From NCBI RefSeq assembly GCF_902167635.1, contig NZ_CABHMS010000009.1, forward strand, positions 1 to 64,000: a DNA stretch of 64,000 bases, written 5' to 3'. Positions within the stretch are counted from its first letter, which is position 1. Each line of letters starts with the position of its first letter. The translations under genes were made by a program, and so were the position numbers. This DNA comes from Chitinophaga vietnamensis (GTDB taxonomy: Bacteria > Bacteroidota > Bacteroidia > Chitinophagales > Chitinophagaceae). Shown here piece after piece: positions 22,316 to 38,182 of this stretch. The notes under the pieces are model-generated. The model searched no databases and was not told the origin of the DNA. It was given only the letters and a program-made list of their open reading frames with translations.

Positions 22316-22401
22316 GAGGGCTTAACAATTTGTTAATTCGGAGTTAAATTTTAACCACGATTATTTATCATCTTTGCGCCATGAATCAAACTTCTCTAAT
22401 C

Positions 22402-25400
22402 ATGGGATTTAGAAAATTACTTCTTACATTTTCTTTATTACTCACAGTCCTTTTTACCTATGCTCAGGTAACGACAAGTAGCATGACTGGCGTTGTTACA
22501 GACGCAAAGGGCCAGGCCCTGATCGGCGCCACCGTTAAGGCAACCCACACTCCTACCGGTACTGTATATGGTACTACTACCCGCGAAAGTGGTGAGTTTA
22601 CCATCCCCAACATGCGTGTTGGCGGCCCGTACAAGGTAGAAATTTCCTTTATCAGCTACAGCACTGAAACTTTGAACGAGCTGTATCTGAAACTGGGTAC
22701 ACCGCTGAAACTCAGCATAAAGCTGAATGAAGGCGCCCAATCACTGAAAGAAGTGAACATCACTGCCTCCAAAGCGATCGCACAAGGCAATGGCGGTACT
22801 GCCATGAACGTTTCCCGCGCGCAGCTCGATGTGTTGCCGACTGTAAACAGGAGCGTACAGGATTTCGTAAGACTGAGCCCTCAGGCTGCTGTTTCTACCA
22901 ATGGTAAAGACGGTTCGCCAATGGGGATCTCTTTCGGCGGTCAGAGTAACAAGTACAACCAATTCGCTGTGGATGGTGCTGTTACCAACGACGTATTCGG
23001 CTTGTCTGCCTCCGGTACTAACGGTGGCCAGGCTGGCGCCAACCCCATCTCTATTGAAACAATCGACCAGTTACAAATCGTATTAAACCCTTATGACGTA
23101 AAACAGAGCGGCTTCACCGGCGGCGGTATCAATGCTATCACCAAGAGTGGTACCAATAACTTCCACGGCGCAGCTTACCTTTATTACCAGACCCAGGGCC
23201 TGGTAGGTAAAGCTCCGGATTCCACCCGTCAGAAGTATGGCGACTTTACCAGTAAAGTATTCGGTGCTTCACTGGGCGGTCCGATCATCAAAAACAAACT
23301 GTTCTTTTTTGTAAACGCAGAAAGAAGTGTAAGGAATAATCCGATCGACTTCAACCCTGCTGCCGGCGGTTCCAACGTTACTGTAGACGAGCTGAAAAGC
23401 ATCTACAATTTCGTGAAAACCAAATACAACGTTGACCTGGGCGGCTATACCGACCAGCAACGCGACAAAACCGCTACCACATTGTTTGGCCGTATCGACT
23501 GGAACATCAACGCAGTGCACAAACTGACCATTCGCCACAACTACCTGAATGCCAGTGATCTCATTTATAGCAGAGGTTCCAGCTCCGCCGCTTTCTTCAA
23601 TGATTATTATACTTTCCCTTCAAAAAGTAACTCCAGCGTAATCGAGTTGAACTCCAACTTCTCCAATAAGCTGAGCAACGAACTGAGGGTAGGTTATAAT
23701 AATGTAAAAGACAGAAGAAGTTACATTGGCCAACCTTTCCCGACCGTTACCATCAATGATAACGGCCGTACTATCAACCTGGGTAGTGAATTCTCTTCTA
23801 CTGCCAACGCGCTGGATCAGAGCATCTGGACCATCACCGATAACCTCACCATGTACAAAGGCAAACACACCATCACTGTTGGTGCAAACGCTGAGATCTA
23901 CAAGATCAAAAATACCTTCATCCAGGGTGCTTTCGGTTCTTATGTTTACGATTCTATCGCCGGTTTCATCAACAACCTGAAACCAAGACAATATCAGATC
24001 AACTATACCACTGCCGACTCTACTATGAGAGATGGTATTGGTTTCAAAGCTGCGCAGATCGGCTTCTACGCACAGGATGAATGGAACATCAGAAGAAACT
24101 TCACCCTGACTTATGGTGTGAGAGTAGACATTCCGATCTTCCCGACCACACCTCCTGATAACGTGGCGTTCTCTAAAGACCCTGCATTCGCTGGCTACTC
24201 TACCACTACCATTCCGAAATCCCGCCCGCTCATCGCTCCGCGCGTAGGCTTCAACTGGGATGTGACTAACGATGGTAAAACTATCATCCGTGGTGGTGCT
24301 GGTATCTTCACCGGCCGTGTGCCATTCGTATGGATCTCCAACCAGTACGGCAATACCGGTAACGTATATACGAACGTGAACCTGAGCGGCGCCGGTTTAC
24401 CTGCTGCCTTCCGTTTCAACTACGATGGCAACAGTCCGTTCTACGGTCAATACTCTGCTGCTAACCTGGCTGCAATGGGCGCCAATGTGGGCTCCAGACC
24501 GTCCAACATCAACCTGTCTGACAAGGATTTCAAATTCCCTCAGATGTTCAAAACCAACCTGGCTGTTGAAAGACAACTGCCTTGGGGTATGACAGGTACC
24601 ATTGAAGGTAACTTCACCAAAACGCTGAACAACGCTATCTGGGAAAACCTGAACATTATTCCTACCGGCGATAGCGTAGCACTGGGTGGCGGTATCAAAA
24701 GACCTACCTGGAAAAAGAAAACTACCAACTGGGGCGATCAGATCCTCCTGCTGAAAAATACCAACGAAGGTTATACTTATAACGTATCTGCCGAGTTGAC
24801 CAAAACAACCAGCAATGGCCTGTTCTTTAAAGTAGGTTATTCTTACGGTGATTCATATGCCATTAACGACGGTACTTCTTCTACTGCAGGTTCTAACTGG
24901 CGCTTCGGCCCCAATATTAATGGTCTGAATAATCTGGAACTGGCCCGCTCCAACTACAGCATGGGCAGCCGTGTACTGGCGGTGGTTTCAAAAACATTCA
25001 AATATGGTAAGGAAAATAAATTCCGTACAACTGTTACCTTGTTCTACAACGGTCAGTCCGGCATTCCTTATTCATGGGTATACTTCAACACAGTTGATCC
25101 TACCGGCGACGACCTCGGTTCCAACGGTAACAACGACCTGATCTACATCCCGAAAGCAACAGAAGTAGCCACTATGACCTTCGATCCTATCAGCCAGAAG
25201 GATTCTAAAGGTAATGTGATCTACACCCGTTCTCAGGATCAGCAACGTGCTGACCTCGAGCGCCTGATCACCAATGATGGCTACCTGAGCAAACACCGTG
25301 GCGAGAACGCGAAGAAAAATGCCGTACGTACGCCGTTTGAAAACATCTTCGATTTCAAAGTGGCACAAGTACTGCCAATCTTCAAACAACACAAACTCGA

Positions 25401-25641
25401 GATCACATTTGATGTGCTGAACGTAGGTAACCTCCTGAACAAAGACTGGGGCAGAACTTACTTCATCGCCAACAATGCCTCCACTCCGCTCACATTCAGA
25501 AAACTGGATGCCGCCGGCAACCCTGTTTTCCAATATGACAGAAGAAGAGAGATTAATGGTTTCGGTGATGAAAAGCCTTACTACATCAACAACTTCACTG
25601 CTCGCTGGAGAGGTCAATTAGGCCTGCGTTACAGCTTCTAA
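22402..25641 (+). CDS. Oar-like TonB-dependent receptor
   Basis: A 1,079-residue outer membrane protein. A signal peptide (MGFRKLLLTFSLLLTVLF, TYAQ) is followed by a carboxypeptidase-regulatory-like domain (SMTGVVTDAKGQALIGATV), a plug beginning near VNRSVQDFVRLSPQA and a large barrel ending GLRYSF. It lacks the SusC-type linker motif and has no SusD partner, as expected for Oar-type receptors. An ATG also exists seven codons upstream (22381), but it lies only four bases after the near-consensus -7 element, so 22402 is the more likely start. Codon choice is rich in GGT, AAC and CTG, suggesting high expression. Confidence 0.92.
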   Translation: MGFRKLLLTFSLLLTVLFTYAQVTTSSMTGVVTDAKGQALIGATVKATHTPTGTVYGTTTRESGEFTIPNMRVGGPYKVEISFISYSTETLNELYLKLGTPLKLSIKLNEGAQSLKEVNITASKAIAQGNGGTAMNVSRAQLDVLPTVNRSVQDFVRLSPQAAVSTNGKDGSPMGISFGGQSNKYNQFAVDGAVTNDVFGLSASGTNGGQAGANPISIETIDQLQIVLNPYDVKQSGFTGGGINAITKSGTNNFHGAAYLYYQTQGLVGKAPDSTRQKYGDFTSKVFGASLGGPIIKNKLFFFVNAERSVRNNPIDFNPAAGGSNVTVDELKSIYNFVKTKYNVDLGGYTDQQRDKTATTLFGRIDWNINAVHKLTIRHNYLNASDLIYSRGSSSAAFFNDYYTFPSKSNSSVIELNSNFSNKLSNELRVGYNNVKDRRSYIGQPFPTVTINDNGRTINLGSEFSSTANALDQSIWTITDNLTMYKGKHTITVGANAEIYKIKNTFIQGAFGSYVYDSIAGFINNLKPRQYQINYTTADSTMRDGIGFKAAQIGFYAQDEWNIRRNFTLTYGVRVDIPIFPTTPPDNVAFSKDPAFAGYSTTTIPKSRPLIAPRVGFNWDVTNDGKTIIRGGAGIFTGRVPFVWISNQYGNTGNVYTNVNLSGAGLPAAFRFNYDGNSPFYGQYSAANLAAMGANVGSRPSNINLSDKDFKFPQMFKTNLAVERQLPWGMTGTIEGNFTKTLNNAIWENLNIIPTGDSVALGGGIKRPTWKKKTTNWGDQILLLKNTNEGYTYNVSAELTKTTSNGLFFKVGYSYGDSYAINDGTSSTAGSNWRFGPNINGLNNLELARSNYSMGSRVLAVVSKTFKYGKENKFRTTVTLFYNGQSGIPYSWVYFNTVDPTGDDLGSNGNNDLIYIPKATEVATMTFDPISQKDSKGNVIYTRSQDQQRADLERLITNDGYLSKHRGENAKKNAVRTPFENIFDFKVAQVLPIFKQHKLEITFDVLNVGNLLNKDWGRTYFIANNASTPLTFRKLDAAGNPVFQYDRRREINGFGDEKPYYINNFTARWRGQLGLRYSF

Positions 25642-25722
25642 TAGCCGCACAAGATATCTTCAATAGAAAAGGCGCCGCAGATCTGCGGCGCCTTTTCTAT
25701 TGAAGATATCTTGTGCGGCTAT
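25641..25722. repeat. 82-bp perfect palindrome directly after the receptor stop codon
   Basis: Two 41-base arms, from atagccgcacaagatatctt inward to gcgccgcaga, are exact complements with no loop. The first base is the last base of the TAA stop. The centre is GC-rich (ggcgccgcag/ctgcggcgcc), with a following ttttct. On RNA it would form a very stable hairpin at the 3' end of the receptor message, likely a terminator or RNA stabiliser. Confidence 0.95.
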
Positions 25723-25829
25723 GAATACAGTACAGCGATATTTTCGCAGTATCATCTAATAATTTAGTGATTGAATACCCTGTCATCTTTTATAACTGTA
25801 CTGTTTTTATAACCTTAACCTATATTACC

Positions 25830-28217
25830 ATGCGAAAACCTCTACTATTATTTTTCCTACTTGTTTATGGCGCCCTATCCGCTGTTGTATCGGCACAAAA
25901 TTGTCCGATCAGGACCGTTACAACCAAATGGGATGGCCCGGGAACCAGCAATACCTGGAATTGGAGCACTGCGTTTTATGATAACGTGTATATAAAGAAC
26001 CGAAGCTACACCACCATCGCTTCTCCATTCTACGCCCCCACTTCCACTTTGCAGAACCCTAATCTTATTTTTCTGCAATCACCAGTAGTAAAAGAGTTAT
26101 TGCCGGAAGACGGATGGGAGCTGTTGGTAAAAGATTTCGGTAATAATGTGAACTTACCTGCAACAGCGGTCACCAATCCTTTCTTCGCCCTGTATAACCG
26201 GTACACAGGGACCATAAGGGCTTTCTTTATGGTGATAGATCCCCTGGCCGGAAACAACAATGGAGCAACTATAAGCCTGATGTTTGAAAGTGGCCCCGGG
26301 GGCAATGAAAGCGCCTTACTGGCATTTGCCAATCCAATTACCAGCTCTGTAGATAAATTCGTAAAGGGCAGCATGCTCCGCATGCCCAATAAATATTCCA
26401 ACGAATATGATTATTGGTTGTTTGCTGATTTTCCCGTGGCATATGATCCATGTACCTGTGTATATAATTCTAAAATTACTTTCACCGTTCAGTTAATTGA
26501 AACCACCAATGCCTCGCTTTCCATCAAGCTCAAAGGTGCTTCCACAGGGTCTATCAAAGAAGTGATCAAAGCAGCTCCTGCAGGCGTACAATCATCATTG
26601 GAAAGTAATTCAGTGCTGGATTGGGTAAATGGTGTTGTAAAATCAGGTACAGAAGGATACAAAAGCTGGCAGGGCTTCAGCACAGCAATAAATGGTGTAA
26701 AAGATGCGATAGTGACCGCTAATCCGGGTCAGTCACAGAAAATAACGCAGGAATTGTCGGGCATATTAAACATTGCTAAAGCCATTCCTTATGTGGGCGC
26801 CGTGGCAGGTGTACTCGACTTCTTTATTGGTGGAGGTAAGAATGCTGCACGATCTGCGCCGATGGCTTTTGAAGCCAACCTTCAGCACGTTATCAATGGT
26901 ACAGCCGATGGTAAACTGGAATTGTCCACCGTAAGAGGCTATCGTACCATTTGTACACCAGGCGCCAATAACACCGGTACCATCACTGCTATACCTACCT
27001 ATGATAACCCCCTTGGAGTATTTACCCTGATGGAAACCCCTAAAGTGGAATTTTTACAATATCAACGAATATATACTACTTCCATCGGTTATACAGCCCC
27101 GAATCCTTCATACGATCCAAACTGTGCACCCACTCCCGACGACCCCTATAAATGTGATGGTAACACACCTTACATTAATGGTTCGATCGGTACGCTTGAT
27201 GATAAAATCCGTGTTTACAAAGTGAGCGCACCGATCAAATATGTGCTTAACCCCGCCGCAAAAGTAGATCTGATAGATCTAAAAGTTGCCCTGGTAGTCT
27301 ATGATACTATGTATCATGAACACTGGAACACACCCGCTACCTTTGGTAATGTTGCTCCCTATACCTCGCTGAATGGGCAATTAAACAATATGGGGTATGA
27401 ATATGAGAATGACATACGCTACAGAACACCGTTTGTTTCCCTAAACTGTATTAATAATACCAGCATTGCGGTGGTCATGAGTAACAATATCAATGGCAGG
27501 CTGATCATGCCAACAGATATATACCTGAAAGTGAAAGCCATTTTCCGCAGACAAGATGCAGGCCCCAATACACAGGACATTCTGTTCATAGGCACTTATA
27601 AAACAGACCAGGCGCGTTCGGCAGCAGATCCGGGTAACCTGACCTTTACCTTGCAACCTACCAACAGAAAAGATGGCAATTCATTCGATATTCCACCTTA
27701 CGAGTACCCTAATACTTATTATTACCAGGCATCCCAGATTATATTCCCTATGCCGGTTCCTGGTATAGCAGGTCAGGATAGTCCAACTTTTCCTGCCGGA
27801 TGTCCTACCGGTATTCCTCCTGCACAGAATGCTTCACAGATCGCCGCTTTCTGTGGAGATCGTTCCAGGTATAATCCGCAAGTATTAGCTATGCTGGCGA
27901 ATGCGAAAGATTCATACCGCCCGGTAGAACCAATGGATTATAGAACGAAAGAGGCCCAGGAAAGAAAACTATGGAACAGCCCCAACCCCGTAAAAAATCA
28001 GACAACGATTTCTTTTGAACTGGATAAAGAAGAGAAAGTGTTATTGTATGTAAGTGATTTGAATGGACGTCAGATAAAAATGCTGATAGATAAAAGCCTT
28101 CCGGCAGGTACACACAACACGGTCTTTTATACTGATCAACTGAGCAGCGGTACCTACTTTTATACGCTGGTAGCGGGAAACAGGCATTATACCAACAAAC
28201 TGATTGTAACAAGATAG
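25830..28217 (+). CDS. Secreted protein with type IX secretion C-terminal signal
   Basis: A 795-residue protein. A signal peptide (MRKPLLLFFLLVYGALSAVV, then SAQ) starts at the ATG at 25830; an upstream in-frame start at 25767 would add 21 non-signal residues. The last 80 residues form a T9SS type A sorting domain: NSPNPVKNQTTISFEL, then LLYVSDLNGRQIKML, GTHNTVFYTDQLSSGTYFY and a terminal KLIVTR. The bulk has no domain I recognise. A mid-protein hydrophobic stretch (AIPYVGAVAGVLDFFIGGG, near 325) is unusual for a soluble cargo. Probably displayed on the cell surface or released. Confidence 0.85.
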   Translation: MRKPLLLFFLLVYGALSAVVSAQNCPIRTVTTKWDGPGTSNTWNWSTAFYDNVYIKNRSYTTIASPFYAPTSTLQNPNLIFLQSPVVKELLPEDGWELLVKDFGNNVNLPATAVTNPFFALYNRYTGTIRAFFMVIDPLAGNNNGATISLMFESGPGGNESALLAFANPITSSVDKFVKGSMLRMPNKYSNEYDYWLFADFPVAYDPCTCVYNSKITFTVQLIETTNASLSIKLKGASTGSIKEVIKAAPAGVQSSLESNSVLDWVNGVVKSGTEGYKSWQGFSTAINGVKDAIVTANPGQSQKITQELSGILNIAKAIPYVGAVAGVLDFFIGGGKNAARSAPMAFEANLQHVINGTADGKLELSTVRGYRTICTPGANNTGTITAIPTYDNPLGVFTLMETPKVEFLQYQRIYTTSIGYTAPNPSYDPNCAPTPDDPYKCDGNTPYINGSIGTLDDKIRVYKVSAPIKYVLNPAAKVDLIDLKVALVVYDTMYHEHWNTPATFGNVAPYTSLNGQLNNMGYEYENDIRYRTPFVSLNCINNTSIAVVMSNNINGRLIMPTDIYLKVKAIFRRQDAGPNTQDILFIGTYKTDQARSAADPGNLTFTLQPTNRKDGNSFDIPPYEYPNTYYYQASQIIFPMPVPGIAGQDSPTFPAGCPTGIPPAQNASQIAAFCGDRSRYNPQVLAMLANAKDSYRPVEPMDYRTKEAQERKLWNSPNPVKNQTTISFELDKEEKVLLYVSDLNGRQIKMLIDKSLPAGTHNTVFYTDQLSSGTYFYTLVAGNRHYTNKLIVTR

Positions 28218-28277: not shown

Positions 28278-29027
28278 TTATTTTCTCTCTGAAAAAAACG
28301 GCAGCCGCAACATCGCTTCCACAGCCAGTTTCCAGGTATCCGGATGATGCCGCCCGCCTTGTATTTCCAGGTAATGTATATCTTGTTGCAGCTGGTAACC
28401 GTGCATCTGCAATTCTTCAATCAGGTCCAAGGTATCATCGATGCTGTCGATAACGCCATTGTTGTTACGATCGGCGGTTTCGTCATCGGTTCCACATTCA
28501 AAGAAAAACTGCATGCCGGGATGAAAGTGTCCCTTACGGATCACACGGTGCATGATGCGGTCGGTCAGGTCGCTGTAATGGGCGTCGAGAGGCTTGTCGC
28601 GCCACCAGAGCGCGCCGGAGCATACGCCCGCAAAAGTAAAGATATCCGGATGCCGCCATACGATATCCAGGGCCGACAGCCCACCGAGCGAAAAGCCGGC
28701 AAAGCCACGCGGGAGGCCCGCTACAGCAGGATGCTGCTGATACAGCCATGGCAGCAGCTCTTCCAATATGAATGCGGTATATTCGGCGGCCAGACTACCA
28801 TCGCCCTGAAAATCGGGGATGCCGGCTACGCCATATTCCTGCCTCCTGGCACTGCCGGCATGTATGCCGGCCACCATCACCGGCGTAGCCTTCAGCAAGG
28901 TCGGGATATCCAGCAACGGCAGGTCCTGCCCGTCGTTGACCAGCAATAATGTTTCTGGCGGTAATTCCGGCAGGTAAATATCTACCTGCACTTCCCGTCC
29001 TAACTTCTTCGAATAAACGAAACCCAT
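28278..29027 (-). CDS. Alpha/beta hydrolase, esterase family (esterase D-like)
   Basis: A 249-residue cytosolic protein of the PF00756 esterase type. The nucleophile elbow is GFSLGG (Ser113), an NDGQDLP segment near residue 32 is typical of this family, and GGRHHPDTW near the C-terminus supplies the catalytic His. Residues 186-198 (DRNNNGVIDSIDD) form an EF-hand or dockerin-like calcium loop placed inside the hydrolase domain. It is divergent from, and 132 bases away from, the plus-strand amidoligase run that begins with another esterase. The substrate is unknown; an ester or peptide conjugate made by the neighbouring ligases is possible. Confidence 0.82.
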   Translation of the reverse strand: MGFVYSKKLGREVQVDIYLPELPPETLLLVNDGQDLPLLDIPTLLKATPVMVAGIHAGSARRQEYGVAGIPDFQGDGSLAAEYTAFILEELLPWLYQQHPAVAGLPRGFAGFSLGGLSALDIVWRHPDIFTFAGVCSGALWWRDKPLDAHYSDLTDRIMHRVIRKGHFHPGMQFFFECGTDDETADRNNNGVIDSIDDTLDLIEELQMHGYQLQQDIHYLEIQGGRHHPDTWKLAVEAMLRLPFFSERK

Positions 29028-29159
29028 CTTTTGGGGATTTGAATATTTAATTATCTGGGTATTTTATTATTGGCAGACTTTCAATCTATGAATTTATGCA
29101 TTTTAATCCTCCCATCAAATCCCAAAATATCTAAATAAATAAATCCGTAAATTTATTTA

Positions 29160-29867
29160 ATGACTGAAAACTTCTACAAATGGCATTCCCCCAGTCTGGA
29201 CCGGGAATTTGAGATGCTGGTGTTTGGCCACAGTGGCTATCCCCTGCTGCTGTTCCCTACGTCCATGGGAAGGTATTTTGAAAGCAAGGACTTCGGCCTG
29301 ATCGAAGCCATCCGCTGGTTCATTGACGAAGGCCATGTGAAAGTTTACTGTCCCGACAGCATCGATGCACTCAGCTGGTACAATAAAAATATCCCGCCGG
29401 CGCAAAGAGCGTATAACCATACCTGTTATGACCGCCTGCTGATGGAAGAGATATTGCCGCGCATCAACGCCGAAACCGGCTACCAGCGCATCGCTGCGGC
29501 CGGGTGCAGTTTCGGCGGGTACCATGCAGCCAACTTTGCCTTCCGGCACCCGGAACGTGTATCCTACCTGTTCAGCCTCAGCGGCGTGTTCGATATCAAA
29601 CCAAGGGTAGACGGCTATTACGACGATAACATCTATTTCAATAACCCGGCAGATTTTATCTCCGGCAATAACGAGGCAGACCTCTGGCGCATGGGCATCA
29701 TACTCGGCGTAGCCAGCGAAGACGTTACCCGACCACAGAATGAAATGCTGTCGCGCATGCTGACCGCCAAAAAAATCAGCCACTGGCTCGATATCCGCCA
29801 GGGCGCCGTACACGACTGGCCCGTATGGCGCGAGATGCTGCCGCATTATCTGTCACTCATACAATAA
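29160..29867 (+). CDS. Alpha/beta hydrolase, esterase family
   Basis: A 235-residue protein of the same PF00756/COG4947-like group. The nucleophile is in AGCSFGGYHAA (Ser117); the acid is probably in the region after GVASEDVT, and His in AVHDWPVW near the C-terminus. It has no signal peptide, so it should act in the cytoplasm. First gene of the plus-strand run hydrolase - ATP-grasp - GCS2 ligase - amidotransferase - ATP-grasp-like; the next start is only five bases after its stop. It may trim, transfer or release the product of the ligases, or hydrolyse an activated intermediate. Confidence 0.85.
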   Translation: MTENFYKWHSPSLDREFEMLVFGHSGYPLLLFPTSMGRYFESKDFGLIEAIRWFIDEGHVKVYCPDSIDALSWYNKNIPPAQRAYNHTCYDRLLMEEILPRINAETGYQRIAAAGCSFGGYHAANFAFRHPERVSYLFSLSGVFDIKPRVDGYYDDNIYFNNPADFISGNNEADLWRMGIILGVASEDVTRPQNEMLSRMLTAKKISHWLDIRQGAVHDWPVWREMLPHYLSLIQ

Positions 29868-29872
29868 AGCAC

Positions 29873-30847
29873 ATGAAAAAGATCGGCATCCTTTTCGGAC
29901 AGGAAAACACTTTCCCCCAGGCATTTGTAGACCGTGTGAACAAGATCAATCCACCGGGGATCTTCGCGGAATTTGTATCGATAGATAAAGTGATACAGGG
30001 CGCCGATAGCGGCTATGCGGTCATCATCGACCGTATCTCCCAGGATGCTCCCTTCTACCGCGCCTACCTGAAAAATGCCGCCATCAGCGGCGCCGCCGTC
30101 ATTAACAACCCTTTCTGGTGGAGCGCCGACGATAAATTTTTCAACAACGCACTCGCCCAGCAAACAGGCGTACATGTGCCCCGCACCGTATTGCTGCCGT
30201 CCAACAAGCTACCCAACAACACCACCGATAACTCTTTCCGCAATCTTGTATATCCGTTCGACTGGAACACTATCTTCGACTACGTGGGCTTTCCCGCCTA
30301 TATGAAACCATATGATGGCGGTGGATGGAGAGATGTGTACAGACTGGAAGACCGGGAAGAATTTTTCCAAAAACATAAAGAAACCGGGCAACTGGTGATG
30401 TTATTACAGGAAGAGATCAACTTCACGCAATACTACCGCTGCTACTGCATTGGCGGCAAACATGTGCGCATCATGCCTTATGACCCGCGAAACCCGCACC
30501 AGCAGCGTTACAACGCCGATTTTAAAAGCAGCAAGTCCTTGTTGAAAGAAATATCACAGGCCGTGATCACCCTCAACCAATACCTGGGCTATGATTTCAA
30601 TACAGTAGAAATAGCGGTGCGCGGAGGAGTGCCCTATGCCATCGACTTCTGCAATCCTGCACCCGATGCCGACCTTCATTCCATTGGAGAAGAGCATTTT
30701 GAATGGGTAGTGGAAACCAGCGCCCAGTACGCCATCAAGCGCGCCAAAGCACAGGCGCCAGGTGCAGATAATCTCACCTGGGGAAAATTTATCAAACCCG
30801 TCTCTCCCCAAAAAAATACCGCCAAAAAACAACAAAAAGAAAAATGA
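29873..30847 (+). CDS. RimK-like ATP-grasp carboxylate-amine ligase
   Basis: A 324-residue ATP-grasp enzyme, of the class that couples ATP to amide-bond formation through an acyl phosphate. MKKIGILFGQENTFP at the ATG 29873 starts a Rossmann-like pre-ATP-grasp domain. PAYMKPYDGGGWRDV (near 145) is the ATP-binding loop with its Lys, MLLQEEI is the hinge, and VEIAVRGG with AIDFCNPAPDAD gives the Mg-binding acidic/Asn set. The frame extends 16 codons further upstream into the previous gene, which is less likely. The C-terminus is a lysine-rich tail. Acceptor and donor are unknown. Confidence 0.85.
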   Translation: MKKIGILFGQENTFPQAFVDRVNKINPPGIFAEFVSIDKVIQGADSGYAVIIDRISQDAPFYRAYLKNAAISGAAVINNPFWWSADDKFFNNALAQQTGVHVPRTVLLPSNKLPNNTTDNSFRNLVYPFDWNTIFDYVGFPAYMKPYDGGGWRDVYRLEDREEFFQKHKETGQLVMLLQEEINFTQYYRCYCIGGKHVRIMPYDPRNPHQQRYNADFKSSKSLLKEISQAVITLNQYLGYDFNTVEIAVRGGVPYAIDFCNPAPDADLHSIGEEHFEWVVETSAQYAIKRAKAQAPGADNLTWGKFIKPVSPQKNTAKKQQKEK

Positions 30848-30863
30848 AACCGTTTTACCGGGC

Positions 30864-30871
30864 TACATTTG
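30864..30871 (+). promoter_or_regulatory. TAnnTTTG -7 element before the GCS2 ligase gene
   Basis: TACATTTG lies in the 51-base gap and would give a 5' UTR of about 20 bases. It suggests that the ligase can be transcribed from its own promoter as well as by read-through. Confidence 0.45.
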
Positions 30872-30898
30872 TATCCATAAAAAACTAACAGCAATACC

Positions 30899-31999
30899 AT
30901 GTACAACGCGTTCACGCTGGGCATAGAAGAAGAATATATGGTCATAGATCCTGCAACGCGGGAACTCAGATCACATGAGCAAAAGATCGTGGAGCAGGCC
31001 CACAAAGTGATCCGCGACCAGGTGAAAGCCGAATTTCACCAGGCAGTAGTGGAAGTAGGCACCCGCGTGTGCGCTAACATACATGAAGCCCGCGAAGATG
31101 TAGGCCTGCTGCGCCGCACCATCCACCAGATCGCCGGCGAGCTGGGTTTCAGCGTTGGCGCCTCTGGCACGCATCCCTTTAGCAAATGGGAAAAACAACT
31201 CATCACCGACCACCCGCGATATTTCGAGATCGTCAATGAAATGCAGGATGCCGCAAGGTCGAACCTTATCTTCGGTATGCACGTGCATGTAGGCATGGAA
31301 AACCGCGAAATGGCCCTGCACATCGCTAATTCCGTACGTTATTTCCTGCCGCATATCTTTGCGCTCAGCACCAACTCCCCTTTCTGGGAAGGGCGCAACA
31401 CCGGCTTCAAATCCTTTCGTACCAAGGTGTTCGACAAATTCCCCCGCACCGGCATCCCCGATTTTTTCAGCAGCATAGAAGAATACGATAACTATATTAA
31501 ACTGCTGGTGAAAACCAATTGTATCGACAATGCCAAAAAAGTATGGTGGGACCTGCGTGTACATCCTTTCTTCAACACGGTAGAATTCCGCATCTGCGAT
31601 GTGCCGCTGACGGTAGACGATACCATTACGCTAGCAGGCCTGTTCCAGGCCGTATGCGCCAAGATATACAAGCTGCGCATGCAAAATCTCAACTTCATCA
31701 TCTATAACCGCGCGCTCATCAATGAAAACAAATGGCGCGCCTCCCGCTATGGCATCGATGGCAACCTCATTGATTTTGGTAAGGAGATGGAAGTGAACGC
31801 CCGCTCCCTCATCTTCGAACTCCTCGATTTTGTGGATGATGTAGTGGATGACCTGGGCAGCCGCGATATCATTAACGCCACCGTTCACATCCTGGAAAAC
31901 GGTACCGGCGCGGATAAGCAGCTCCGCTGTTACGATACAACCCACGACCTGGTGGCCGTTACAGACTATATCCAGCAACAATTCCTCGCAGGATGTTAG
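30899..31999 (+). CDS. GCS2-type carboxylate-amine ligase (YbdK/glutamate-cysteine ligase 2 family)
   Basis: A 366-residue member of the glutamine-synthetase-like GCS2 family. LGIEEEYMVIDPATREL at the N-terminus carries the metal-binding glutamates; GMHVHVGM near residue 128 and RVHPFFNTVEFRICD near 220 are the other hallmark motifs. Characterised relatives form gamma-glutamyl amides such as gamma-glutamylcysteine, but many act on unknown substrates. The length is normal. The setting with two ATP-grasp-like proteins and an amidotransferase argues for a dedicated biosynthetic role rather than ordinary glutathione synthesis. Confidence 0.9.
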   Translation: MYNAFTLGIEEEYMVIDPATRELRSHEQKIVEQAHKVIRDQVKAEFHQAVVEVGTRVCANIHEAREDVGLLRRTIHQIAGELGFSVGASGTHPFSKWEKQLITDHPRYFEIVNEMQDAARSNLIFGMHVHVGMENREMALHIANSVRYFLPHIFALSTNSPFWEGRNTGFKSFRTKVFDKFPRTGIPDFFSSIEEYDNYIKLLVKTNCIDNAKKVWWDLRVHPFFNTVEFRICDVPLTVDDTITLAGLFQAVCAKIYKLRMQNLNFIIYNRALINENKWRASRYGIDGNLIDFGKEMEVNARSLIFELLDFVDDVVDDLGSRDIINATVHILENGTGADKQLRCYDTTHDLVAVTDYIQQQFLAGC

Positions 32000-32028
32000 G
32001 TTCCCGCTCCTTTGCCAGAAACTTCGCG

Positions 32029-32036
32029 TAATTTTG
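32029..32036 (+). promoter_or_regulatory. TAnnTTTG -7 element just before the amidotransferase ATG
   Basis: TAATTTTG ends four bases before the ATG at 32041, so transcription from it would start at or beside the initiation codon and give a leaderless or near-leaderless message. Confidence 0.45.
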
Positions 32037-32040
32037 CAGT

Positions 32041-32925
32041 ATGCGTTCTATTAAAATAGCCGTGCTGGATATGTACGAAGGTGTGCCGAACGAAGGCATG
32101 CGCTGTATCCGCGAGATTTTGACGAAGTATGCCGATATGCACCGCCTCCAGCTGCATTTCGATGAATTTGAAGTACGCCTGCAACAACAGGTTCCCGACA
32201 CCTCTTATGATATCTACCTCTCTACCGGCGGCCCCGGCAGCCCGGTAGACAGTGAAGGCAGCGACTGGGAAAAAGCCTATTTCAAACTGGTAGAAGATCT
32301 CCTGCAATGGAACCGTAGCGAAGCACAAAAGAAGCCCATGCTTTTCATCTGCCACTCTTACCAGATCATGTGCAGATATTACGGACTCGGAAAGGTATGC
32401 AAGCGCAAATCCCCTGCCTTCGGGGTTTTCCCGGTACACAAAACCGCGGCCGGCCTACAGGAGAAAATATTCGGCGCACTGCCCGATCCCTTCTATATCG
32501 TCGATAGCCGCAACTGGCAAGTGATCGAACTGAACGACGATAAGTTACAAGCCATGGGCGCTAAAGTACTGGCATTGGAAAAAGAACGGCCGCACGTACC
32601 GCTGGAACGCGCTACCATGGCCATTCGTTTCAATGAACATTTTATCGGCACACAGTTCCATCCGGAAGCCGATGCCGCCGGTATGCACATGTACTTGCTA
32701 CAGGAAGAAAAGAAAAAGCAGGTGGTAGACAACCACGGCATCGAGAAATATAACAGCATGATCGAGCAGCTGACCGATCCCGACAAGATCATGCTTACGC
32801 ACGACCGCTTTGTGACGGCATTCCTGGACTATGCCATCTATGGCGCGCTGTCTGACCGTCTCGCCGCCATCGAACGGAGCGTGCAGGTAGTGGCGCACAA
32901 CGATGCCGAAAATTCGTTCTTTTAA
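32041..32925 (+). CDS. Class I glutamine amidotransferase-like protein
   Basis: A 294-residue protein with the complete class I glutaminase triad: Cys104 in FICHSYQIM, and His207 and Glu209 in TQFHPEAD. YLSTGGPGSP near residue 60 is the oxyanion-side loop. Such domains take ammonia from glutamine and hand it to a partner synthetase; they can also act as gamma-glutamyl hydrolases. About 80 helical residues follow the triad, beyond a minimal glutaminase. The gene is embedded between the GCS2 ligase and a divergent ATP-grasp-like protein, so amidation of their product is the natural inference. The next gene begins 10 bases after its stop. Confidence 0.88.
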   Translation: MRSIKIAVLDMYEGVPNEGMRCIREILTKYADMHRLQLHFDEFEVRLQQQVPDTSYDIYLSTGGPGSPVDSEGSDWEKAYFKLVEDLLQWNRSEAQKKPMLFICHSYQIMCRYYGLGKVCKRKSPAFGVFPVHKTAAGLQEKIFGALPDPFYIVDSRNWQVIELNDDKLQAMGAKVLALEKERPHVPLERATMAIRFNEHFIGTQFHPEADAAGMHMYLLQEEKKKQVVDNHGIEKYNSMIEQLTDPDKIMLTHDRFVTAFLDYAIYGALSDRLAAIERSVQVVAHNDAENSFF

Positions 32926-32935
32926 TGTTTACACT

Positions 32936-34132
32936 ATGATCCGAACCGTCAGAACAGCCTATAACGAGCAATTCACCGATCATCGCTACCAGCAGTTCCT
33001 GCAAGGCATGGCCGCAGATGCAGGCGTGGCGCCTGCCTTCAGGGTAGCGGAAACGCCCGTGTTCGTACCCGCCAGCCTCACCACCAAACTGGTACAAGCC
33101 TGCGAAGAGATCGTGAATGTGATCCTGCGGCCCGATTTCAAAACCCTTACCCAGGAAGCCATTCCGCCGGCATTGAAAGTACCGCAGGAAAATGATCACC
33201 CACATTTTATCGTGATCGATTTTGCAGTTTGCAAAACAGATGATGGTACGCTCGTGCCCCAACTCATCGAACTACAGGGCTTTCCGACCATGTTCGCCTT
33301 CCAGGAAGTAATGGCACGACAGTATCAAATACATTTTGACATCCCTTCTCATCTCAATAACTTCTTCAATAACCTCGACCAGCAAAGCTATTATCAGCTG
33401 CTCCACGATATGATCGTAGGCAACGCTGCTCCCGAAGAGGTGATACTGCTGGAAGTGAAGCCGGAAGAGCAAAAGACGAAGATCGATTTCTATTGCACGG
33501 AAAAATATATCGGCATACGCACCGTTTGTCTGACCGAATTGATACAGGAAGGCAAGCAGCTTTTCTATATGCGCGACGGCGTGAAAACGCCTGTGCGCCG
33601 CATTTACAACAGGATCATCTTCGATGACCTTCAAAAACAGGCAGATACTTTAGGAGATCATATCAACCTTTTCCAGGAACTGGATGTAGAATGGATCACG
33701 CATCCCAACTGGTTTTACCGCATCAGCAAATTCATGATGCCGCTCATCCACAGCGAGTATGCACCGAAAAGCTGGTTCCTTCACGAGTTACCGGTGATAC
33801 CCGCCGACCTCGAAAATTATGTGCTCAAACCATTGTTCTCATTTGCCGGACAAGGCGTAATTATAGATGTGAAGCAGGAAGATATCGACCAGGTGAAAGA
33901 TCCGGAAAACTGGATACTGCAACACAAAGTAAAATATGCCCCTGCCATTGAAACGCCCGGCGGGCCTGCCATCTGTGAGATCAGGATGATGTACGCCTGG
34001 CCCGATGGCGCCGCAAGGCCGGTATTGGTACACAACCTTTCCCGCCTCAGCAAAGGCAAGATGATTGGCGTAGGCTTTAATAGTACTGATACCTGGGTGG
34101 GCGGCAGTTGTTGCTTCTTTGAGTTTGAGTAA
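32936..34132 (+). CDS. Divergent ATP-grasp-like protein, last gene of the amidoligase run
   Basis: A 398-residue protein that I do not recognise by name. Several stretches look like an ATP-grasp fold, possibly of the circularly permuted type: LIELQGFPTMF near 105, TPVRRIYNRIIFDDL near 218, then YVLKPLFSFAGQGV near 296, with a candidate ATP-binding Lys and glycine loop, WILQHKV as a hinge strand, and ICEIRMMYAW as possible Mg ligands. The ATG at 32936 is preferred to an upstream frame extension inside the previous gene. If active, it would be the third amide-forming ligase in the cluster. Fold assignment is inference. Confidence 0.65.
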   Translation: MIRTVRTAYNEQFTDHRYQQFLQGMAADAGVAPAFRVAETPVFVPASLTTKLVQACEEIVNVILRPDFKTLTQEAIPPALKVPQENDHPHFIVIDFAVCKTDDGTLVPQLIELQGFPTMFAFQEVMARQYQIHFDIPSHLNNFFNNLDQQSYYQLLHDMIVGNAAPEEVILLEVKPEEQKTKIDFYCTEKYIGIRTVCLTELIQEGKQLFYMRDGVKTPVRRIYNRIIFDDLQKQADTLGDHINLFQELDVEWITHPNWFYRISKFMMPLIHSEYAPKSWFLHELPVIPADLENYVLKPLFSFAGQGVIIDVKQEDIDQVKDPENWILQHKVKYAPAIETPGGPAICEIRMMYAWPDGAARPVLVHNLSRLSKGKMIGVGFNSTDTWVGGSCCFFEFE

Positions 34133-35362: not shown

Positions 35363-35749
35363 ATGACACGAACAAACTATGGCTCCGGCGCTACCTGGGA
35401 AGACAAGGTAGGCTATTCCCGTGCCGTGCGTGTGGGTAATATCATTGAAATTGCCGGCACAGTAGCGGTAGATAATGATAAAGTAGTGGCAGAAGGTAAC
35501 GCCTATGAACAAACGAAATTTGCACTGGCCAAGATAGAAGCTGCGCTGGTACGCGCCGGCGCTACTCTCCACGATGTGGTGCGCACCCGCATGTTCGTCA
35601 CCGACATCTCCCGCTGGGAAGAATATGGCCGCGCCCATGGCGAATTTTTCAGAAGCATCAAACCCGTCACCTCTATGGTGGAAGTGAGCAAACTAATCGA
35701 TCCACGCTACCTCGTTGAAATAGAAGCTACCGCTATCATAAAAATTTAG
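35363..35749 (+). CDS. RidA family (YjgF/UK114) protein
   Basis: A 128-residue small cytosolic protein of the Rid family, which deaminates reactive enamine/imine intermediates released by PLP enzymes. ALAKIEAALVRAGATLHDVVRTRMFVTDI is the core helix-strand region, and the terminal YLVEIEATAI carries the conserved Glu. The N-terminus (SGATWEDKVGYSRAVRVG) fits the Rid6/7-like groups more than archetypal RidA, so the exact activity is uncertain. Single gene; its stop codon lies at the base of a long hairpin. Confidence 0.88.
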   Translation: MTRTNYGSGATWEDKVGYSRAVRVGNIIEIAGTVAVDNDKVVAEGNAYEQTKFALAKIEAALVRAGATLHDVVRTRMFVTDISRWEEYGRAHGEFFRSIKPVTSMVEVSKLIDPRYLVEIEATAIIKI

Positions 35750-35976: not shown

Positions 35977-36279
35977 TTAATACAGTTCGCGCCATTTGAG
36001 CATGCCGCCAGCCAGGTTCTTCACGTTGGTGAAGCCCATGGTTTCGAGGAGCATGCAGGCCTGTCCGCTGCGGTTACCACTGCGGCAGTAAACGATCACC
36101 TCATCATCTTTCCACGCTTCAATCTCGTCGATCTGCATGGCCTGCACCTGGCCCAGTGGTACCAATACACCGCCGATATTGAATTCCGCACGCTCATGCG
36201 GTTCCCTTACATCTACAATATGGAGGGTCTCTCCTTTATCCAGGCGCTCTTTCAGTTCTTGCGCGGTAATATTTTCCAT
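35977..36279 (-). CDS. Rhodanese-like domain protein
   Basis: A 100-residue single-domain rhodanese. IVDVREPHERAEF and VIVYCRSGNRSGQA carry the family motifs, with the active-site Cys65 that would hold a persulfide. The frame extends upstream to 36309, but MENITAQELKERL at 36279 is the usual start. It is downstream of the PASTA and ddl genes on the minus strand. Likely function is sulfur transfer; the acceptor is unknown. Confidence 0.9.
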   Translation of the reverse strand: MENITAQELKERLDKGETLHIVDVREPHERAEFNIGGVLVPLGQVQAMQIDEIEAWKDDEVIVYCRSGNRSGQACMLLETMGFTNVKNLAGGMLKWRELY

Positions 36280-36330
36280 GTTAATAAAATTTGTGTTGCT
36301 GATTATCATTGTAATTTACACCAATTCCGG

Positions 36331-37146
36331 CTATTGCTGCTCGGGCTGCGCGGCAGCGCCGGTGCTGTCTTTTACCGGTTTGGTGGCCGACAGCCACAGG
36401 TCCACGCTTTCGCCGGCCCTCACGAGGTTGAACTCACCAATATCGTTCTTACGTGCAGGCTGCTGCTTGATCACATAGGCATTGGCCGTATCTTTTACAC
36501 TTGGATCGATGATCACTGTGCCGGCATTGAGACTGCTCGCACTGAGCGCTTCACGGGCCTCCATGTAGGTAAGTCCTACAAAATTAGGCACCGGGTTTTC
36601 AATGCTGCCAGTACCGCTGCTCAACACCAGTGTAACGTTGCTGCCTTCCGGCACCAGGGTGCCCGGCTTCACTTTCTTGCCATTGAGTATCTGTTGCAAT
36701 ACCGTGTTGGTAGCGAAATCCGGCTTATAGATGGTATCGCCTACGTTGAGGCGCATGCTTTTCAGCATCATTTCAGCGCTGCGGAAAGTAAGCCCCTCGA
36801 GGTCGGGCATCTTTACCATCGGCGCCACTACCTTGTTAATGGTCAGATAGATGGTCCTTCCCACTTTCACCTGCGCGCCTTTTTCGGGCGTTTGTACCCA
36901 TACGGCCAGCGGCGGGATACTGTCTATATAGATAGAATCTCTTACATCCGCTTCAAAACCCATCTTTTCAAGCGTGGCAATGGCCTCTTTTACATTCTTG
37001 CCATGAACATCAGGCACCGTCAGCGTTTGCCCGTGCTTGGTGATCACGCCCAACATAGAAAAGAACAGCAAGGCCAGCACAAAGAAAAAAGCGATTACTG
37101 CCAACAGGTTAAATCCGAATGAGCGTTTGGTGATGAAATCAAACAT
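36331..37146 (-). CDS. PASTA-domain membrane protein
   Basis: A 271-residue bitopic protein. A short cytosolic N-terminus and one membrane helix (LLAVIAFFFVLALLFFSMLG) precede three PASTA repeats (about 40-105, 107-180 and 184-256), recognisable by VPDVHGKNVKEAI, MPDLEGLTFRSAE and VPNFVGLTYMEAR. PASTA domains bind peptidoglycan or muropeptides. There is no kinase or penicillin-binding domain, so it is a stand-alone wall sensor or scaffold. It lies 49 bases after ddl, which fits a cell-wall role. Confidence 0.88.
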   Translation of the reverse strand: MFDFITKRSFGFNLLAVIAFFFVLALLFFSMLGVITKHGQTLTVPDVHGKNVKEAIATLEKMGFEADVRDSIYIDSIPPLAVWVQTPEKGAQVKVGRTIYLTINKVVAPMVKMPDLEGLTFRSAEMMLKSMRLNVGDTIYKPDFATNTVLQQILNGKKVKPGTLVPEGSNVTLVLSSGTGSIENPVPNFVGLTYMEAREALSASSLNAGTVIIDPSVKDTANAYVIKQQPARKNDIGEFNLVRAGESVDLWLSATKPVKDSTGAAAQPEQQ

Positions 37147-37195: not shown

Positions 37196-38182
37196 TTATT
37201 TCATGCATTCCTCCAACAGCTCGCCGTAGAACGCCTGCAAGGTTTTACCTGCGGCCCTCACCTGTTGTGGCACCAGGCTGTTTTCTGATTGTCCGGGCAT
37301 GGTGTTGGCTTCCAGGAAAAACAGTTTACCGCTGGCTTCTTCATAAATAAAATCGATGCGTACAATACCTCGGCAATTGAGTTTGTCGTACAGGGCAGAA
37401 GCGGTATCCTGCACGAGCTTCGTAATATCGGCAGATACCGGCGCCGGCGTAATCTCGTTGGAAACGCCTGGCGTATATTTCGCCTCGTAATCGAAAAACT
37501 CTTTACTGCTCACCACTTCGGTGATCGGCAATACCTGTAGCTGGCTGCCCGTGCGGTACACGCCAATGGTGAGCTCGCGGCCTTTGATAAATTCTTCGAT
37601 GAGTACCTGTGAGTCTTCTTTGAAAGCCTTGTCGATAGCGGGTTGCAGCTCTTCGGCGGTTTTCACCTTTGACATGCCGATGCTGCTGCCGCCTTCTGCG
37701 GGCTTAACGAATACGGGTAAACGCAGTTGTTGTAATATATCAGTGGTATTGTAGGGCAGATGACGGAAGATATGTACAGATTTGGATACGTTCACGATGT
37801 TGAACGCTGCCACTACCTTGTTGCAATAGCTCTTGTTGAAGGTGAGCGCGGAGGTGACCATGCCACAGCTGGTGAAGGGGATGCCGAGCATCTCGAAATA
37901 GCCCTGCAGGCGGCCATCTTCACCGGGCGTGCCGTGGATGCCGATGAATACCGCATCAAAAGTGATCTTCTTGCCCGCCACCAGCAGGGAGAAATCATTC
38001 TTATCGATCGAATACACCTGGCCATCAGCAGCAGTGTAGTGCCATCCTTCTTTTGTGACGATGATCTTGTAAACATCGTATTTGCTGCTATCGAGATTTT
38101 TCTCAATCGTAACGGCACTTTGCACGGATATTACATATTCTCCGGAATATCCGCCGGCCACCAAAGCTATATTCTTCTTCAT
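37196..38182 (-). CDS. ddl: D-alanine--D-alanine ligase
   Basis: A 328-residue ATP-grasp enzyme that makes the D-Ala-D-Ala dipeptide of peptidoglycan. VAGGYSGEYVISVQSA at the N-terminus, GIHGTPGEDGRLQGYFE near 83, KPAEGGSSIGM near 162, and the metal-binding RIDFIYEE and FLEANTMPG near the C-terminus match Ddl. Normal length. It heads the minus-strand run ddl - PASTA - rhodanese. Confidence 0.95.
   Translation of the reverse strand: MKKNIALVAGGYSGEYVISVQSAVTIEKNLDSSKYDVYKIIVTKEGWHYTAADGQVYSIDKNDFSLLVAGKKITFDAVFIGIHGTPGEDGRLQGYFEMLGIPFTSCGMVTSALTFNKSYCNKVVAAFNIVNVSKSVHIFRHLPYNTTDILQQLRLPVFVKPAEGGSSIGMSKVKTAEELQPAIDKAFKEDSQVLIEEFIKGRELTIGVYRTGSQLQVLPITEVVSSKEFFDYEAKYTPGVSNEITPAPVSADITKLVQDTASALYDKLNCRGIVRIDFIYEEASGKLFFLEANTMPGQSENSLVPQQVRAAGKTLQAFYGELLEECMK

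Follow-up and report, generated by a model that had tools for sequence, protein, structure and literature searches.

A co-inherited set of amide ligases, a glutamine amidotransferase-like protein and hydrolases in Bacteroidota, probably forming a carrier-free pathway to a small metabolite

The window analysed here, a stretch of 64,000 nucleotides of Chitinophaga vietnamensis (contig NZ_CABHMS010000009.1; G000:C9:1-64000, G000 being the genome of the window), contains a compact cluster of six genes, P0001 to P0006. Five of them are on the plus strand and encode a PF00756-type alpha/beta hydrolase with a GCSFG motif (P0002, 29160-29867), an ATP-grasp ligase with a predicted RimK/LysX fold (P0003, 29873-30847), a GCS2/YbdK-type carboxylate-amine ligase (P0004, NF010039, 30899-31999), a class-I glutamine amidotransferase (GATase)-like protein (P0005, 32041-32925) and a member of a divergent subfamily of circularly permuted ATP-grasp proteins with a predicted YgiC/GspS/eukaryotic glutathione synthetase fold (P0006, 32936-34132). 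The sixth gene, P0001, is divergent (28278-29027, minus strand) and encodes a PF00756 esterase, also an alpha/beta hydrolase. The gene order, the intergenic gaps of 5, 51, 41 and 10 bases from P0002 to P0006 and the 132 bases between P0001 and P0002 are as reported in a preliminary description of this DNA, which had proposed a compact cluster with a glutaminase, two hydrolases and three amide-forming ligases. This composition is borne out by our analysis, and co-inheritance was established for the ligases and the GATase (see below). The Bacteroidota promoter consensus, TAnnTTTG, does not occur between P0001 and P0002, where one TAnnTTT is present per strand, both near the start of P0002.

The two ligases P0003 and P0004 differ in how closely they match described families. 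P0003 is predicted to adopt an ATP-grasp fold of the RimK/LysX type, with Lys145 invariant in its aligned relatives; all its matches to ATP-grasp models are sub-threshold, including that to the RimK family TIGR00768 (31.8 bits, cut-off 143.4), and by score it does not fall in the R2K clade (R2K_2, 19.5 bits, and R2K_3, 14.3 bits; cut-offs 26.2 and 26.3). P0004 matches the carboxylate-amine ligase model NF010039 with 535.1 bits (cut-off 371) and GCS2 with 206.5 bits, and its alignment has the highest mean column identity (83%) among those of the six proteins. Its G8-I-E10-E11-E12 segment corresponds to GhExE, presented in PMC2588565 as the metal/ATP motif of YbdK/GCS2 carboxylate-amine ligases, and G8, E10, E11 and E12 are kept in 21/21 aligned relatives.

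P0005 matches the class-I GATase family PF00117 (42.1 bits, cut-off 22.8); the catalytic triad previously noticed in its sequence, Cys104/His207/Glu209, is confirmed and is retained in all 45 aligned relatives, the nucleophile elbow being F-I-C-H-S. P0006 matches no family above cut-off (GSP_synth PF03738, 16.8 bits; cut-off 29.3). Its predicted structure is a circularly permuted ATP-grasp that shares the YgiC/GSP_synth-type fold over the entire chain, the nearest proteins being YgiC/YjfC, the glutathionylspermidine synthetase GspS and eukaryotic glutathione synthetase. Lys298 of P0006 is invariant in aligned relatives. Once the motif positions had been matched by eye, canonical RxD and ExN were not found: D95 and E112 are present in 45/45 sequences, position 93 is V, A, I, C, S or T, and position 114 is Q in 45/45. 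The statement of the preliminary description that none of these genes resembles those of glutathione synthesis (GshA/GshB) was too strong, as P0004 belongs to the YbdK/GshA-like GCS2 superfamily and P0006 has the predicted fold of eukaryotic glutathione synthetase, GspS and YgiC.

The hydrolases P0001 and P0002 score 66.4 and 33.6 bits against PF00756 (cut-off 22). The nucleophile Ser113 and His227 of P0001 are invariant in 28/28 aligned relatives, and Ser117/His218 of P0002 are kept in 31/31. P0001 also has an acidic loop (186-198, read by eye) resembling an EF-hand, with D186, N188, N190 and D194 present in 28/28 relatives; judging from these residues, it is perhaps a metal-binding esterase.

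A search with exact peptide words of P0006 led to 206 loci, and the best 80, picked by closeness to P0006, are referred to as the named loci. All 80 appear, from their titles, to belong to Bacteroidota, and among them the closest named relatives of P0006 are from Chitinophaga species. P0002 is present in 56 named loci and P0001 in 44, on the opposite strand. Because 41 named loci keep all six genes in the order and orientation of the window, the cluster represents more than a chance arrangement. P0005 and P0006 are both present in 77 named loci, and in 67 of these no more than 200 bases separate them. No other family of open reading frames (ORFs) of at least 70 aa is present in more than 32 of the 80 loci; the commonest, response regulator-like (32 loci) and outer-membrane receptor-like ORFs (31 loci), both named by eye, are located about 8 kb or farther from the cluster (medians).

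The distribution of P0003, P0004, P0005 and P0006 was determined by profile searches in 198 Bacteroidota genomes. P0001 and P0002 were excluded from these counts because such esterases have numerous paralogues (the P0002 profile has matches in 96 genomes, many of them weak). After removal of weak fragments (P0006 in G141, 24 residues; P0003 in G271; P0005 in G144), and with the P0006 of G160, split in two pieces across two contigs, counted once, P0003 is present in 72 genomes, P0004 in 62, P0006 in 60 and P0005 in 50. P0006 is found together with P0003 in 58 genomes and with P0004 in 56, and P0003 together with P0005 in 49. The ligase core (P0003, P0004 and P0006) is present in 54 genomes, 34 with the GATase, thus having all four enzymes, and 20 without it; 11 genomes have P0003 and P0005 without P0006. 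Shuffling presence within families 20,000 times never produced as much overlap as is observed, whichever of the six pairs was considered; these shuffles covered 15 hand-picked families, namely those with varying presence plus a few without variation, and hence a part of the 198 genomes. As a negative control with a patchy distribution, strong GshB-like matches overlap with P0003 in 3 of 12 genomes, for 4.4 expected. Physical linkage alone cannot account for the co-occurrence, since the members of each pair are both present but more than 5 kb apart or strand-mismatched in 12 to 23 genomes (contig breaks included). The co-presence and co-absence of P0003, P0004, P0005 and P0006 across the 198 genomes, also within families, argue that they belong to one pathway. 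It had been set beforehand that the proposal should fall if these genes were rarely together; within Bacteroidota, they clearly recur together.

All 50 genomes with P0005 encode a permuted ATP-grasp protein: 39 have P0006 and 11 have a different one, hereafter CP_ATPgrasp. The CP_ATPgrasp genomes are exactly the P0005-without-P0006 genomes, and the gene is at most 200 bases from P0005 in 11/11. These numbers were obtained with a profile of four proteins, from four of the 11 genomes, counting only matches above 600 bits; this leaves out 25 weak matches below 38 bits and a weaker CP_ATPgrasp match (350 bits) in G229, a genome where P0006 is present and P0005 absent. We inspected the regions of seven of the 11 genomes (L171-L177), of which L171, L174, L175 and L176 were partly resolved by ORF calling; a long frame around the P0003 relative of L176 was dismissed as a frame extension produced by this procedure. 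Where resolved, the order is hydrolase (none seen in L173), P0003, a protein of 450-475 aa and P0005, followed in several cases by a PF00756-type esterase. Each of the three 450-475 aa proteins tested has matches to models of circularly permuted ATP-grasps; one of them exceeds the cut-off (37.3 versus 32 bits) and two stay below it. Four aligned CP_ATPgrasp proteins have canonical RxD and ExN, unlike P0006. P0004 is present in only 39 of the 50 P0005 genomes, and its absence from the other 11 disfavours a role of P0005 tied to the product of P0004. The tie of P0005 to a permuted ATP-grasp in 50/50 genomes, and not to P0004, suggests instead that P0005 and P0006 would form a glutamine-dependent amidating pair.

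The gene set initially proposed stands for the window, but not as the full extent of the system, since relatives also have a further ATP-grasp, aminopeptidases and an amidohydrolase. Three families (L173, L178, L185) have the further ATP-grasp (about 400 aa) inside the cluster or adjoining it. A profile built on four such proteins, of which three come from genomes with P0003 in the 198-genome sample, detects it in 42 genomes at 399 bits or more (second copies in counted genomes follow at 166 and 138 bits, and the rest are at most 57 bits). All 42 are among the 72 genomes with P0003, for 0 of the 126 without it (Fisher 9e-24), and 0 of 20,000 within-family shuffles, here over 16 families, reach the observed overlap. 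Only six of the 42 (G108, G109, G128, G131, G188 and G223) have the gene close to the cluster, at a distance of up to about 3 kb; neither the genome of the window nor any of the seven others sampled from its family has it. ORF calling recovered it in 16 of 20 loci inspected; in five of these 16 it adjoins an M17 aminopeptidase-like ORF (Pfam assigned each of three tested ORFs to M17), and in seven an ORF matching the P0001 profile with a low score (six shown, 37-56 bits) is nearby. L185 combines these genes in one strand-matched row, with a P0001-labelled ORF (57.5 bits), an M17 peptidase, the further ATP-grasp and P0002-P0006.

Other hydrolases recur close to the cluster. An M42 aminopeptidase-like ORF is directly 5′ of P0005 in seven named loci (one tested), an M29 peptidase separates P0004 and P0006 in L183, and an M24 peptidase is near P0005 in five loci of a single family (one tested). 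An Amidohydro_3-like ORF overlaps the P0006 relative or is at most 17 bases away in nine loci of two families (L210, L217, L218 and L239-L244; one tested), and two loci of Chitinophagaceae type (L072 and L209) have such an ORF 5′ of P0005. A small ferredoxin-like ORF, recognized by eye, just precedes the Amidohydro_3-like ORF in five of the nine loci. In one genome (L214/L137), a sodium:solute symporter is joined in frame to the P0006 relative (L214:4137-6740), and in another a symporter-like ORF is directly 5′ of it (L212:5290-7869); such a symporter is a possible substrate importer, two cases being too few to use. A short-chain dehydrogenase near some loci was discarded as a partner, chance being likely for such a broad family.

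In the window, the cluster is followed by P0007 (34215-35312, plus strand), which matches no family above cut-off and has membrane-like segments by eye. Nineteen of the 80 named loci, all from Chitinophaga, have a P0007 relative 3′ of the cluster, and we count P0007 as a lineage-specific neighbour outside the system. The RidA/YjgF-type protein (PF01042) encoded at 35363-35749, also 3′ of the cluster, probably reflects general synteny, since ORFs resembling it are present in 21 of these 80 loci. Farther on are a rhodanese (35977-36309) and a PASTA-domain protein (36331-37146) adjoining a D-alanine-D-alanine ligase (37196-38182), an ordinary ATP-grasp. Directly 5′ of the cluster, positions 22381-28217 encode an outer-membrane beta-barrel protein, then a large protein whose sorting domain is of the Por_Secre_tail type.

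We found no indication that the cluster derives from a defence system or a phage, an origin that was rejected: PADLOC gives 0 families for the seven proteins (E 0.01) and PHROG matches are weak. A scan of viral contigs for the pattern of the P0003 alignment had 96 matches, none of them a relative. Plasmids have no match for P0003, P0005 or P0006; plasmid relatives exist for P0004 (73 records) and P0002 (15 records). In four of these plasmid stretches (L192-L195), a profile scan detected no P0003-P0006-like partner except one ATP-grasp in L192; three more (L196-L198) were judged from annotation tables only. The L192 case, on a Peptoclostridium plasmid (L192:5788-7753), is an ATP-grasp (11.6 bits with the P0003 profile) followed by a P0002-like hydrolase, with histidine-degradation genes nearby; Bacillota may thus have two-gene modules of a related kind.

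We think it probable that the cluster represents, in the form it takes in Chitinophagaceae, a pathway widespread in Bacteroidota that produces a small amide-linked metabolite in a carrier-free manner. From the families, folds, conserved residues, co-occurrence and slot replacement described above, we infer the reactions, their order, their cellular place and the kind of product as follows. Successive ATP-dependent ligations would take place in the cytoplasm, without carrier proteins or adenylation domains, and the product would probably be a small amide-linked metabolite, gamma-glutamyl or peptide-like. P0003, by RimK/LysX-like chemistry, and P0004, by chemistry like that of gamma-glutamyl ligases, would make the backbone bonds. 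P0006 would then turn the terminal carboxylate into an acyl phosphate, P0005 would feed it ammonia from glutamine, and the pair would cap the product. In lineages without P0005, the acceptor may be an amine, for example a polyamine as for YgiC. The esterases P0001 and P0002 would trim, edit or recycle the product, a task that may fall elsewhere to M17, M42, M24 or M29 aminopeptidases or to the amidohydrolase. The presence of the set in many families and its all-or-none distribution fit, in our judgement, a general metabolite (cofactor, osmolyte or signal) better than a niche antibiotic. Of the preliminary interpretation, the idea of a compact, co-inherited set of amide ligases, GATase and hydrolases is upheld, and the narrow gene list and the remark on GshA/GshB that went with it are not.

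Several observations weigh against this pathway. Of the 60 genomes with P0006, 21 lack P0005 and four lack P0004, so that no single step seems obligatory; in the stretches fetched for the named loci, P0005 and P0006 stand alone in 12 of 80 and P0006 by itself in three. Phylogeny inflates the co-occurrence counts, and the 11 CP_ATPgrasp genomes fall in only five families, which means fewer than 11 independent events. The peptidase and amidohydrolase neighbours are lineage-specific, yet the same kind of enzyme recurs. The metal site of P0003 is D258-x-x-N261 in place of ExN. The nucleophile elbow of class-I GATases usually has glycines; that of P0005 lacks them, which is unusual for a sequence of this class, and the P0005 profile has no match among solved structures at E 0.001. 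In the window protein P0006, V93 replaces the arginine of RxD and ExQ replaces ExN. The kinship of P0006 to the YgiC/GspS group is that of a predicted fold, with weak support from sequence: a sequence search ranks YgiC (E 0.28) below an unrelated chain (E 0.18), and a profile comparison gives E 0.0007 with a probability of only 26.5% over 81 columns. Considering these unusual motifs, one or more of P0003, P0005 and P0006 may be inactive or perform other chemistry.

Other functions can be imagined for the same genes; a chance neighbourhood is ruled out by the genome-wide co-occurrence, the within-family shuffles and the unlinked pairs. P0004 and P0003 could make a short gamma-glutamyl peptide that P0006 would join to a polyamine, with P0005 or the peptidases reversing this conjugation. 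YgiC and YjfC are peptide-spermidine ligases, and the polyamines of Bacteroidota are perhaps spermidine or homospermidine; we regard this peptidyl-polyamine scheme as unlikely. Use or detoxification of amines, in which P0004 would gamma-glutamylate an amine and P0005 later cleave the gamma-glutamyl bond, has a precedent in PuuA/PuuD, where an amine is gamma-glutamylated and this bond is later hydrolysed. The presence of a GCS2-type ligase and a class-I GATase-like protein in one cluster and the non-standard elbow of P0005 would suit such a scheme, but P0005 is tied to a permuted ATP-grasp in every one of its genomes and to P0004 in only 39 of 50, making it quite improbable.

A third scheme would not yield a free metabolite at all: the enzymes could modify a protein or an envelope polymer, by peptide tagging or graspetide-like maturation. 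We consider this very doubtful, as a general target or precursor gene of at least 70 aa is not apparent, no other ORF family being present in more than 32 of the 80 loci, and as a GATase and aminopeptidases would suit small substrates better. The family of P0004 and the fold of P0006 could also point to a glutathione-like thiol tripeptide made by a GshA-like P0004 and a eukaryotic glutathione synthetase-like P0006, the more so as PF00756-type esterases include S-formylglutathione hydrolase, to which P0001 has a weak match (15.2 bits, cut-off 281.7). However, BshC, which performs a step of bacillithiol synthesis, is encoded by 196 of the 198 genomes and by that of the window, for a ligase core in only 54, and three to four ligases are more than a tripeptide requires, so that we hold this scheme to be highly improbable; the distribution of BshC likewise makes the main cellular thiol an improbable product. 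The best GshB score (TIGR01380) in the genome of the window is 20.1 bits for a cut-off of 299.05, passed by only 2 of the 198 genomes.

We retain the carrier-free pathway to a small amide-linked metabolite. More tentatively, between a quarter and a third of Bacteroidota may make a new, conserved small metabolite of this kind (a gamma-glutamyl or peptide amide serving as cofactor, osmolyte or signal) by a modular pathway with up to four ATP-dependent amide ligases and with two non-orthologous permuted ATP-grasps in the same GATase-coupled slot. If true, the described biochemistry of a major phylum would lack a metabolite this widespread, which would be a real gap. New here are the predicted permuted fold of P0006, the exact P0006/CP_ATPgrasp swap and the confinement of the further ATP-grasp to P0003 genomes. 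Ligases that were hypothetical or vaguely named become one testable pathway with a defined gene list, and the swap, together with the mostly unlinked further ATP-grasp, names the partners for a reconstitution.

The proposed P0005/P0006 pair can be compared with CarA-CarB (carbamoyl phosphate synthetase), in which a class-I GATase serves an ATP-grasp enzyme. The GATase/ATP-grasp pairing is similar, but P0006 is a permuted ATP-grasp of the peptide-ligase type and ammonia channelling between P0005 and P0006 is putative. ATP-grasp ligase, amidotransferase and peptidase genes are also together in the system for the dipeptide-amide osmolyte NAGGN; the same three kinds of genes are grouped here, with a class-I GATase (P0005) instead of the class-II GATase of NAGGN. 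The NAGGN peptidase model TIGR03106 gives no match at E 0.1 with the six window proteins, and the M42 peptidase of a Sediminibacterium-type locus (L068) scores only 35.3 (cut-off 397.75). Escherichia coli YgiC/YjfC, GspS, eukaryotic glutathione synthetase and the fungal protein Cp1B have the fold predicted for P0006, and the D, E and K motif residues follow in the same order in the YgiC group and P0006 (by eye). P0006 differs from this group in scoring below the PF03738 cut-off, in lacking the arginine of RxD, in having ExQ for ExN and in its P0003 partner, present in 58 of 60 genomes. According to PMC12568646, Cp1B acts in a carrier-free pathway, where it couples an amino acid with a partner that is not one. 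Operons with linked ATP-grasp and COOH-NH2 ligases were predicted earlier to make peptide metabolites by successive ligations, as stated in PMC4431377 and PMC2588565, the former crediting the prediction of amidoligase operons to Iyer, Abhiman, Burroughs and Aravind (2009; doi 10.1039/b917682a). No paper on the present gene set or its product was among the matches listed in a literature search whose coverage stops short of subscription papers and of Iyer et al. (2009), where the P0003-P0006 set may already stand as a prediction. The set is distinct from the RimK, R2K, GSP_synth, NAGGN and glutathione systems, since its members score below the corresponding thresholds or do not show the features looked for. 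It thus represents a distinct form of a kind of operon that had already been predicted.

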